This document shows, piece by piece, positions 364-2,279 of a stretch of DNA of 5,539 nt. Origin of the DNA: Thermococcus sp. (GTDB lineage Archaea; Methanobacteriota_B; Thermococci; Thermococcales; Thermococcaceae); contig JAGGWM010000073.1 in assembly GCA_021157445.1 (NCBI GenBank), positions 1-5,539 on the forward strand, read 5' to 3'. The notes beneath the pieces are model-generated. The model saw nothing but the letters and a program-made list of their open reading frames with translations. It ran no database searches and was not told where the DNA came from. Every line of letters starts with the position of its first letter. Position 1 is the first letter of the stretch. The translations under genes and the position numbers were made by a program.

Positions 364-1113
364 TTATTTTTGAAAGTTCCATTTTTCATTTCCATATCTC
401 TCTTCTATAAGCTTTTCTGCAAGTTCAAGCTCATAATCTGTAAGTTTTCCCTCCTCAAGGGGAAACTCCTCAAAGAACTTCACCTTCAATAACTCATAAA
501 CTTCATCTCTGCTGAGCTCTACCCCTTCTCTTTCTAGTGTTGTTACCCTTTCCCATATGCTTGAAACGCCCTTATCTTGTAGCTTTTTCTGGGAAACCTT
601 GAGTACTGAAGCGAGAACTTCAAGCCGAGTTGCATACATGAAAGTGCCATGCTGTAAGATAATTCCTTTTCTTCTCGTTTGAGCAGACCCACTGATTTTC
701 TTACCATTAGCTACTATATCATTCAGCCCAGCAAATCCTCCCTTTATTCCTACTTCATCAAGCGCTTTGACGAGTGGGGCAGCTAAGAACCTATAGCTCT
801 TTTCTATATTCTTCAAGCTCTCGTGAAAATCCTCTCCTATGATTACGCTGTAGGTTATCTCCCCGTAATGATCGTGAAACACACTTCCCCCGCCTGTAAT
901 TCTTCTCACCACGGGAATGTTAAGCTCCCTGCACCTTTCTAAGTTAACATCGTGCTCAATACTCTGAAATCTGCCAATAGTGATGGAGCTCGGTTTAAAG
1001 ACGTAAAGTCTCACGGTATCCTCCACTTTTCCTTCAATTCTTGCCTTCATTATTGCCTCATCTATTGCCATCTGCACTTCAGGTCTTGCAACTATTAGGG
1101 GAATAAATCTCAT
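364..1113 (-). CDS. lplA: Lipoate-protein ligase A (LplA), large catalytic domain
   Basis: This cytosolic enzyme activates lipoate with ATP and transfers it to a lysine of lipoyl domains such as GcvH or 2-oxoacid dehydrogenase E2. The 249-residue product carries the LplA/BPL catalytic fold: RRITGGGSVFHD at 70-81 (substrate-binding loop), FAGLNDIV at 127-134, the catalytic-lysine motif NGKKISGSAQ at 136-145 (Lys139), HGTFMY near 155-160, and the typical end RYGNEKWNF. It has about the length of the archaeal (Thermoplasma-type) large subunit and lacks the bacterial C-terminal accessory domain, which archaea supply as a separate LplB; no lplB is visible here. The only cysteine is Cys61, so the catalytic cysteine of LipM-type octanoyltransferases is absent, favouring a ligase. 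The ATG at 1113 follows GGTGAT (1122-1117) with 3 nt spacing. Confidence 0.9.
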   Translation of the reverse strand: MRFIPLIVARPEVQMAIDEAIMKARIEGKVEDTVRLYVFKPSSITIGRFQSIEHDVNLERCRELNIPVVRRITGGGSVFHDHYGEITYSVIIGEDFHESLKNIEKSYRFLAAPLVKALDEVGIKGGFAGLNDIVANGKKISGSAQTRRKGIILQHGTFMYATRLEVLASVLKVSQKKLQDKGVSSIWERVTTLEREGVELSRDEVYELLKVKFFEEFPLEEGKLTDYELELAEKLIEERYGNEKWNFQK

Positions 1114-1169: not shown

Positions 1170-1235
1170 AAAGGTAGGATGGGAAAGGTTCGGTCAGAGG
1201 CCGATTAGTTCATCACTCATCAGCAACCTACCTTT
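1170..1235 (-). repeat. 9-bp inverted repeat joining the sRNA D' guide to its 3' flank
   Basis: AAAGGTAGG (1235-1227 on the minus strand, inside the D' guide of the sRNA) is perfectly complementary to CCTACCTTT (1178-1170), which lies just 3' of the sRNA and is followed by ATTATT. The loop is 48 nt. The downstream arm resembles a copy of the guide's own target, or half of a long-range stem in a precursor. Confidence 0.6.
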
Positions 1236-1246
1236 CACATCATCCC
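1191..1246 (-). ncRNA. C/D box guide sRNA (2'-O-methylation guide), minus strand, in the signal peptidase 3' end
   Basis: Reading the minus strand: C box ATGATGT (1243-1237, one mismatch at the last base), a 13-nt guide GAAAGGTAGGTTG (1236-1224), a perfect D' box CTGA (1223-1220), a 3-nt spacer TGA, a perfect C' box GTGATGA (1216-1210), a 12-nt guide ACTAATCGGCCT (1209-1198) and a perfect D box CTGA (1197-1194). GG before the C box (1245-1244) can pair with CC after the D box (1193-1192). Two perfect CTGA boxes plus a perfect C' box at standard spacing are unlikely by chance in a gap this small. The C box contains the TGA stop of the signal peptidase (1242-1240), so the sRNA is probably processed from, or initiated within, the 3' end of that mRNA. 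Products would act in the L7Ae/Nop5/fibrillarin RNP. Confidence 0.82.
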
Positions 1247-1749
1247 AGTCCAAGTCTTTCTCTCACAATGAGAGGGGGATATCCAATTTTTGGAAAGACA
1301 AGCAGTGCTTTTGCCTCAATGGCTTCCTGGGGGATGCATGGGAGGACATCTCCTTCGGCCAGGCTTATATAGTCTTCAAGATATGGGAACTCCTTTATGT
1401 CAAGGGGATAGAAATCATGTATCCAGTTGTTGTCTCCTTGAATGACAAAGCACCTTTTTCCATTGTACTCAATTATATTCCTAACCCTGTGAATTATTGG
1501 ATACCTTGTATATGGCCTTCTGTAAACCACAACGTCTCCTACCTTTATCTCGCTCGGGGGAACTCCTTTGAGAAGAACCACATCTCCCCGATAAAACGTT
1601 GGTTCCATTGAACCGCTTATTACAATAACGAGTGGCGAATCAGTGTGAAGGACAACCTTTAAACCATTATGCACGGCAAAAACAACCACAAGACTTATAA
1701 CCAGAAATGCAATGTCCCCTTTCCATCCACTTAATAGCTTCTCCTCCAT
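1240..1749 (-). CDS. Signal peptidase I, archaeal/ER type (S26B)
   Basis: This is a membrane-bound endopeptidase that removes signal peptides from exported preproteins. The 169-residue product has one N-terminal membrane segment (about 13-34), then ISGSMEPT with the nucleophile Ser47, the hydrophobic box GDVV/VGDVVVYRRP (55-79), IIHRV with His87 in place of the bacterial Lys general base, and QGDNN followed by Asp111, the Asp105/Asp111 pair spaced by 6 as in the characterised Methanococcus enzyme. This Ser-His-Asp pattern marks the archaeal/eukaryotic Sec11 type. The ATG at 1749 follows GGAGG (1761-1757) at good spacing and overlaps the end of the DUF531 gene by 19 nt, so the two are co-transcribed and probably translationally coupled. 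The stop codon lies inside the C box of the sRNA. Confidence 0.92.
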   Translation of the reverse strand: MEEKLLSGWKGDIAFLVISLVVVFAVHNGLKVVLHTDSPLVIVISGSMEPTFYRGDVVLLKGVPPSEIKVGDVVVYRRPYTRYPIIHRVRNIIEYNGKRCFVIQGDNNWIHDFYPLDIKEFPYLEDYISLAEGDVLPCIPQEAIEAKALLVFPKIGYPPLIVRERLGLG

Positions 1750-2279
1750 TTCAACTCCTCCATGATCGTTCTAATTTTTGCTGGTATTGATCCTATGGCA
1801 GTGCAGGTTTCCAAACTTATTCTCTTCCCGTCGGTGATATCTAAATGATAGTTAGCCAACTTAAAGATTTCCTTCGGTAATCCATGTCTCCCAAGTCCTA
1901 CAATCAGCATAAAGCTCTCCCCTTTGAGTGCCCTTTCTGCAAGATGACGTGGAGAGATCTCCTTGTTCTCGTTGGGTTTTCGTGTAGTTGCCACAATGTG
2001 CCCAAACTGAGGAGGAAAACCTCCTTTTGGAAACTCAAGGAGATGAAGCTTATTGGTTCTTGCAAGCTCCAAGAGGTACTTCCCACCTTCTCCGATGGTT
2101 GTACTTTGGGATATCCCCTTGGCTATTTCCACAGGCTTCTTTTTTTCAAAGGGAAACCCTATAAGGGCAAGATGAAAATCAAAGGCATAACAGATAGGAG
2201 CTGCCCTAGCGATGGCTCTTAGATGGGCCTCGTGAAGCTTCTTAGGATCGTATGAATTGTAGAGTGCCAAGGTAAGCAT
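1731..2279 (-). CDS. DUF531 family protein with SPOUT-methyltransferase-like C-terminal motifs
   Basis: I recognise this 182-residue protein as the archaeal DUF531 family from its N-terminal pattern (LYNSYDPKKLHEAHLRAIARAAPICYAF). Its function is, to my knowledge, unassigned. The C-terminal third has the look of a SPOUT knot: a strand FMLIVGLG (123-130), the loop GLGRHGLP (128-135, compare GxGPxGLP of TrmH/TrmL enzymes), the strand HLDIT (145-149), then SLETCTAIG (155-163) where SPOUT enzymes have the SLN/SLE-type AdoMet-binding knot loop. The inference is an RNA ribose or base methyltransferase; the evidence is motif order only. No membrane segment is seen. The ATG at 2279 follows AGGGGAG (2290-2284). 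The gene leads an operon with the signal peptidase and, behind it, a C/D sRNA. Confidence 0.82.
   Translation of the reverse strand: MLTLALYNSYDPKKLHEAHLRAIARAAPICYAFDFHLALIGFPFEKKKPVEIAKGISQSTTIGEGGKYLLELARTNKLHLLEFPKGGFPPQFGHIVATTRKPNENKEISPRHLAERALKGESFMLIVGLGRHGLPKEIFKLANYHLDITDGKRISLETCTAIGSIPAKIRTIMEELKWRRSY

Follow-up and report, generated by a model that had tools for sequence, protein, structure and literature searches.

Introduction

Most archaeal C/D box sRNAs are reported to be trimmed out of longer transcripts (PMC7994747, citing Tripp 2017). In the available portion of that review, only 20% of the genes for these RNAs are credited with a promoter-like motif, and 25% carry the stop codon of the upstream gene, almost half of these within the C box. 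Maturation is described there as depending on the boxes and not on the flanks, and overlaps at the 3' end of a gene had a neutral or slightly negative effect on a reporter. The transcriptome of Thermococcus kodakarensis yielded 69 verified small RNAs, 54 of which belong to the C/D box class, according to the excerpted text of PMC4247193. For double-guide C/D sRNAs, the two targets are described as lying within 100 nt of each other (PMC4644070, in excerpt). One family, sR36, has been mentioned as a possible counterpart of the eukaryotic SNORD60 in a passage quoting Gaspin 2000 (PMC3511168). The sR36 locus is absent from the T. kodakarensis circular RNA table in the accessible part of PMC9014305.

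Here we analysed a stretch of 5,539 nucleotides from Thermococcus sp. (assembly GCA_021157445.1, contig JAGGWM010000073.1), hereafter called the window. A preliminary description, made from the letters alone, had noted a C/D box sRNA at 1191-1246 on the minus strand that overlaps the stop codon of a signal peptidase gene, and had suggested that the RNA was born from or processed out of the 3' end of the mRNA. The source genome is an incomplete assembly of 1.16 Mb, estimated as 61% complete. We compared the locus with 94 genomes of the family, presumably the Thermococcaceae; a search at the level of the order gave the same 94.

Results

An sR36 gene takes up the stop codon of the signal peptidase gene

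The sRNA noted in the preliminary description is real. With cmscan, the covariance model of sR36 (Rfam RF01124) matched the window at 1247-1192 on the minus strand with 60.9 bits (gathering score, 55) and an E-value of 2.5e-13, starting at 1247, one base further out than had been described. The same locus scored 48.1 bits over model positions 2-54, below the cut-off, in the whole-genome search, which had its own settings. The features that matter for the following analysis are listed below.

1191..1247, minus strand: sR36 C/D box sRNA (RF01124), terminal-stem bases included (cmscan and box scan)
1245..1247, minus strand: 5' side of the terminal stem, within CTG GGA, the final two codons of the peptidase gene (covaries with the 3' flank among relatives)
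1237..1243, minus strand: C box ATGATGT, in the form typical of the family (box scan)
1224..1236, minus strand: D' guide, 13 nt, with its predicted 16S rRNA partner around C116 (numbered as in the relative G074)
1220..1223, minus strand: D' box CTGA (box scan)
1217..1219, minus strand: spacer between D' and C', 3 nt (box scan)
1210..1216, minus strand: C' box GTGATGA (box scan)
1198..1209, minus strand: D guide, 12 nt, predicted to pair with 16S rRNA around C233 (G074 numbering)
1194..1197, minus strand: D box CTGA (box scan)
1191..1193, minus strand: 3' side of the terminal stem (covariation in relatives)
1240..1749, minus strand: signal peptidase-like ORF (peptidase S26), the host gene, with its stop codon TGA at 1242-1240 (ORF list)
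1731..2279, minus strand: DUF531 gene, overlapping the peptidase start (ORF list and family search)
364..1113, minus strand: lipoate-protein ligase-like gene, downstream on the same strand (PF21948, 181 bits)

The boxes that characterise an archaeal C/D box sRNA (RUGAUGA and CUGA in the order C-D'-C'-D) are all present in the window. The C', D' and D boxes are perfect, and the C box has one mismatch to RTGATGA. The 13, 3 and 12 nt of the D' guide, the spacer and the D guide agree with what is usual for such RNAs, namely guides of about 10-14 nt and a short D'-C' spacer, and the bases next to C and D form a terminal stem of the pairs G-C, G-C and U-G, of the kind that contributes to the k-turn. 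The peptidase stop codon, as had been claimed, lies within the C box and occupies its positions 2-4. The boxes are short, and the coding and 3' flank sequence might have resembled them fortuitously. An explicit scan for the C-D'-C'-D architecture, allowing at most one mismatch each in C and C', exact CTGA boxes, guides of 10-14 and 10-13 nt and a D'-C' spacer of 2-6 nt, found one match over both strands of the window and none in 400 Markov-1 surrogates. Together with the E-value and with matches in 72 of the 94 genomes, this result led us to reject chance, whose probability we regard as negligible.

The peptidase ORF reached 22.1 bits with PF10502, slightly below the cut-off of 22.9. The DUF531 gene and the peptidase gene are probably carried on one transcript. 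The window also contains a second C/D box sRNA, sR1 (RF01152), at 306-362 on the plus strand, with 52.7 bits against a cut-off of 45. It belongs to another Rfam family and lies on the opposite strand. Unlike sR36, it sits on the other side of the lipoate ligase gene, whose end at 364 it faces tail to tail. The D' box (CCGA) and the C' box (ATGAGGA) of this sRNA are imperfect. sR1 was also present at three of the ten loci scanned (L055, L073 and L075).

sR36 is widespread in the family and largely keeps its C and D boxes

sR36 was found in 72 of the 94 family genomes, including 63 of the 74 of good quality, by a search with stricter filters that can lose weak matches, so that a missing match is no proof of absence. 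The matches cover all six genus groups and exceed the cut-off in 56 genomes. The peptidase query matched in 92 of the 94 genomes. Among the 22 genomes without an sR36 match, 17 have a readable peptidase locus with no sR36 after the gene. In G084 the peptidase is cut by the contig end, and the remaining four have a weak peptidase match or none.

We also sought relocated copies of sR36 by pattern in 20 genomes, with up to three mismatches. Among the matches listed, the counts were near those of the reversed-pattern control in the five g1 genomes searched and above the control in most of the other genomes. A one-mismatch match in G042 looks, by eye, like coding sequence.

For the comparison we used 71 loci; the partial match in G053 was dropped, as the box parser failed on it. 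The D guide core CTAATCGGC served as the anchor of all loci, and its invariance is therefore by construction. In 69 of the 71 loci, the window included, sR36 follows the signal peptidase gene on the same strand, which is a trait of the relatives and not part of the Rfam definition. The D box is CTGA in 68 loci, and the C box is ATGATGT in 61, with the window counted. Thus, the C and D boxes do not drift freely among relatives, a behaviour that the preliminary description had set against its own reading. The variable parts are the D' box (CCGA in 20/71), the C' box (ATGAGGA in 15/71) and the length of the D'-C' spacer. In 20 g4 loci (L040, L042-L050, L052, L053, L059-L062, L064 and L067-L069), the D' box is CCGA and the spacer measures 7-9 nt instead of 3, and the inner k-loop may differ there.

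The stop codon lies at positions 2-4 of the C box in 54 of the 71 loci, as TGA in 53 and as TAA in one. In 15 further loci, the stop codon starts 5-15 nt upstream of the C box (TGA in ten, TAG in three, TAA in two). The last two are G021 and G002, where sR36 lies elsewhere and on the opposite strand, respectively. One could expect the imperfect C box to be a compromise with the stop codon. However, all 17 loci with the stop elsewhere have the same ATGATGT, so we rejected this explanation: the single deviation is not a coding compromise. The last T of ATGATGT falls outside the stop codon. The single TAA, in G049 (L038), goes with the C box ATAATGG; the remaining boxes and the two guides are intact. 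In this draft genome, it may be a natural C-box mutant, an early stage of loss or an assembly error.

The terminal stem of sR36 extends into the coding end

All 54 overlapping genes have GGA as their final codon, compared with 118 of the 631 other glycine codons of these genes (19%), and GGA ends 8 of the 18 peptidases without an adjoining sR36. TGA is the stop codon in 53 of the 54 overlapping genes, versus 10 of the 18 without adjoining sR36 (Fisher p 3e-5) and 10 of the 15 with the stop upstream (Fisher p 1e-3); as the rows are related, these p values are descriptive only.

Positions -2 and -3, counted from the C box, take part in the terminal stem. In overlapping genes, the final codon contributes -2 as its first base, and the penultimate codon contributes -3 as its wobble base. 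The penultimate codon is CTG in 36 genes, GGT in 9, GGG in 4, AGG and TTG in 2 each and GGC in 1. Positions -3 and +2 pair in all 51 distinct flank pairs (G-C in 44, U-A in 6, C-G in 1), and this wobble base pairs with the 3' flank of the sRNA in every overlapping gene. Only the nine genomes of g3 have the U-A form, and only G022 has the C-G form. The covariation therefore amounts to only about two independent compensatory events.

Shuffling the flanks, with the relatedness of the rows ignored, never reached in 2000 trials the 114 pairs observed at stem pairs 2-4 over all 51 flank pairs (mean 80). The same was true for the 35 overlapping flank pairs (0/2000), and the pairing of the 16 distinct non-overlapping ones was equalled by 51 of the 2000 shuffles. 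Sliding one side by a single base lowered the pairing from 165/204 to 140/204 or 95/204, depending on the direction. With the invariant GGA codon and the paired wobble base, the claim that coding and RNA demands meet on one stretch of DNA stands, and the covariation suggests that RNA structure shapes codon choice at the end of the gene.

The overlap has switched several times

In G021, sR36 lies 113 nt after another ORF and before an ORF that we read by eye as malic enzyme-like. In G002 (L039 1573-1627, minus strand), it is on the strand opposite the peptidase and directly follows an ORF read by eye as radical-SAM-like, which is a host switch in place. The peptidase tree requires 7 changes for the overlapping, 6 for the separate and 12 for the absent state, and the starred branches alone force 5, 3 and 6. 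The tree comprises 87 rows from a short search, with 34 of 80 inner branches open, and makes no distinction between gain and loss; L018, whose locus has no peptidase, and the truncated L056 were left out. From these counts, the arrangement of stop codon and sR36 has switched several times. The nearest pair to the window in the tree (SH-aLRT 85, not starred) has no sR36.

We considered whether the sRNA could have arisen de novo from the 3' end of the peptidase mRNA, with the TGA stop codon seeding the C box. Start and stop codons have been proposed to speed the evolution of k-turn motifs (PMC7994747, in the portion available), the overlap is the commonest state, and GGA also ends some of the peptidases that have no sR36 beside them. 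Against this origin, sR36 occurs in all six genus groups and also away from the peptidase, the tree asks for 7 changes for the overlapping and 6 for the separate state, and no sRNA-free ancestor was identified; the tree is blind to gain versus loss. We therefore hold a birth from this message to be unlikely, and the corresponding suggestion of the preliminary description is not supported, in view of the positions of sR36 in G002 and G021. The other half of that suggestion, processing of sR36 out of the mRNA, is likely and matches the published model.

Both guides are predicted to face cytidines in 16S rRNA

In the 52 genomes in which both RNAs were read, the D guide always forms at least 10 consecutive pairs with 16S rRNA, and the D' guide forms 9-10 in 51 of them. 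The exception is G002, with 8 pairs, a mismatch and two more pairs. The guide base that faces the target in C/D box sRNAs, the fifth upstream of the D or D' box, lies opposite a cytidine in both cases: C116 in G074 (about E. coli 132) for D' and C233 (about E. coli 241) for D. G024, which has the separate form of the locus and corresponds to T. kodakarensis in its 16S coordinates, has a D guide shorter by one base, and the fifth base of this guide faces the neighbouring G instead of the cytidine.

A search for 16S and 23S rRNA in the source assembly, which is incomplete, gave no match, and the guides of the window were therefore tested on the rRNA of G074. The D guide forms 10 consecutive Watson-Crick pairs with 16S rRNA at C233. 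Against 16S and 23S rRNA of G074, shuffled guides equalled the real one in 2/300 cases for the D guide of the window, 3/300 for the D guide of G074 and 2/300 for its D' guide. The window shares a 13-nt D' guide ending in TTG with the six other sR36 loci of its genus, and it alone among these seven has a substitution in this guide that weakens the 16S duplex, leaving 8 consecutive Watson-Crick pairs plus G-U. The best 16S match of this guide was equalled by 50 of 300 shuffled guides, and its score of 16.5 is nearly equal to the 16.0 for 23S rRNA. Apart from this near tie, 16S rRNA gave higher best scores than 23S rRNA, and we rejected 23S rRNA as the target.

The weakened D' guide, the sR36-free nearest pair in the tree and a whole-genome score that is the lowest but two of the 72 might indicate that the copy of the source organism is decaying, with the gene on its way to loss. 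However, all four boxes, the terminal stem and the duplex formed by the D guide are intact, which makes decay rather improbable.

Both target sites are intact in 16S rRNA of eight of nine genomes without an sR36 match. The sole sequence without the sites, that of G003, differs widely from the others in the stretches compared. Consequently, conservation of the targets alone is no evidence for a guide role, and loss of the guide leaves no trace in the rRNA sequence.

The guides also bear on whether the k-turn at the peptidase stop acts in cis, with bound L7Ae controlling how stable the mRNA is or how well it is translated, and without production of a free guide RNA. Such a role would suit the 54 loci with the stop codon inside the C box, and regulatory k-turns have been suggested for some T. 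kodakarensis transcripts (PMC4247193, in excerpt). Yet a cis element would need neither of the two regions that match 16S rRNA, sR36 is not next to the peptidase in G021 and lies on the opposite strand in G002, and the 15 loci with the stop upstream keep the same C box. We consider this role very unlikely.

Elements adjoin the 3' edge of sR36

A near-identical element (CGAAAGACAAGGGGGCT...), a candidate mobile repeat, starts at the same offset after the D box of sR36 in 12 of the 71 loci (L031, L041, L043 and L050 among them), and five of eight genomes searched contain 2 to 4 copies of it with at most three mismatches. In other genomes, different hairpin-like elements begin at about the same place. 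The 3' edge of sR36 may be an insertion point or a terminator site. Directly after sR36 in L011, L012 and L027, the sequence GCTCAGTGGTGACCGCTTTCATCACC, read on the opposite strand, resembles by eye a further C/D box sRNA arranged tail to tail with sR36. The first part of this sequence is also found in L071; Rfam returned nothing above the cut-off there in L012 and L071.

Discussion

We are highly confident that the window encodes an sR36 guide RNA that takes the peptidase stop codon into its C box, that is likely trimmed from the message and that is predicted to guide modification of 16S rRNA. We observed the boxes and their spacing, the family match, the conservation, the complementarity to 16S rRNA in relatives and a covarying stem that extends into the last two codons. 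We infer that sR36 is transcribed with the peptidase gene, trimmed by nucleases, assembled into an RNP and used in methylation. In the proposed course, sR36 would be transcribed as part of the peptidase message, and upon binding of L7Ae, Nop5 and fibrillarin it would likely be trimmed out. Once free, the RNA would direct ribose methylation to two cytidines within the 5' portion of 16S rRNA.

Why the coding frame should end inside the RNA can be rationalised by the sequence that sR36 would need at its 5' edge, ...GG-ATGA, on whose TGA a frame could end cheaply. The cost of the overlap to the gene would be small, namely two wobble bases and the choice of the stop codon. The overlap most likely persists since the 5' edge of the RNA supplies a usable TGA at little cost. 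Other lineages end the frame a few codons upstream and have the same C box.

Excision of sR36 would remove the peptidase stop codon and split the last codons, and one transcript might then yield either the peptidase or the 16S guide, not both. If this were true, the either-or processing would couple the capacity for protein export to ribosome maturation in the overlapping lineages, and the lineages with the stop a few codons earlier would have broken this link. The neutral reporter result for 3' overlaps, as reported in the portion of PMC7994747 available, speaks against a strong coupling, and we regard the coupling as unlikely. The family offers a natural experiment, in which one and the same sRNA is found with the stop in its C box, upstream of it, on the other strand, at another locus, or is absent altogether. 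Such a series makes it possible to examine the cost of the overlap for gene and RNA alike, and the question of whether release of the sRNA destroys the host mRNA.

Compared with the known systems, the sR36 copy of the window is an ordinary case in most respects. It matches RF01124 over its full length, with the order of the boxes, the guides and the place after the signal peptidase as in relatives. The two predicted sites of sR36 are 117 nt apart in one rRNA and fit roughly to the pattern described for double-guide C/D sRNAs. The geometry is that of the archaeal C/D sRNAs whose C box includes the stop codon of an upstream gene (Tripp 2017, covered in the available part of PMC7994747). Both sR36 and stop codons inside C boxes have already been described, and the window presents a catalogued guide RNA in a catalogued arrangement. 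Beyond Tripp 2017 as reviewed there, we traced the overlap over 71 loci, where it comes and goes while the C box remains constant, and found a terminal stem that enters the two final codons and covaries at a wobble position. This comparative picture of the overlap and the stem covarying within the coding end are the new part, with no such analysis contained in the portions of the literature examined.
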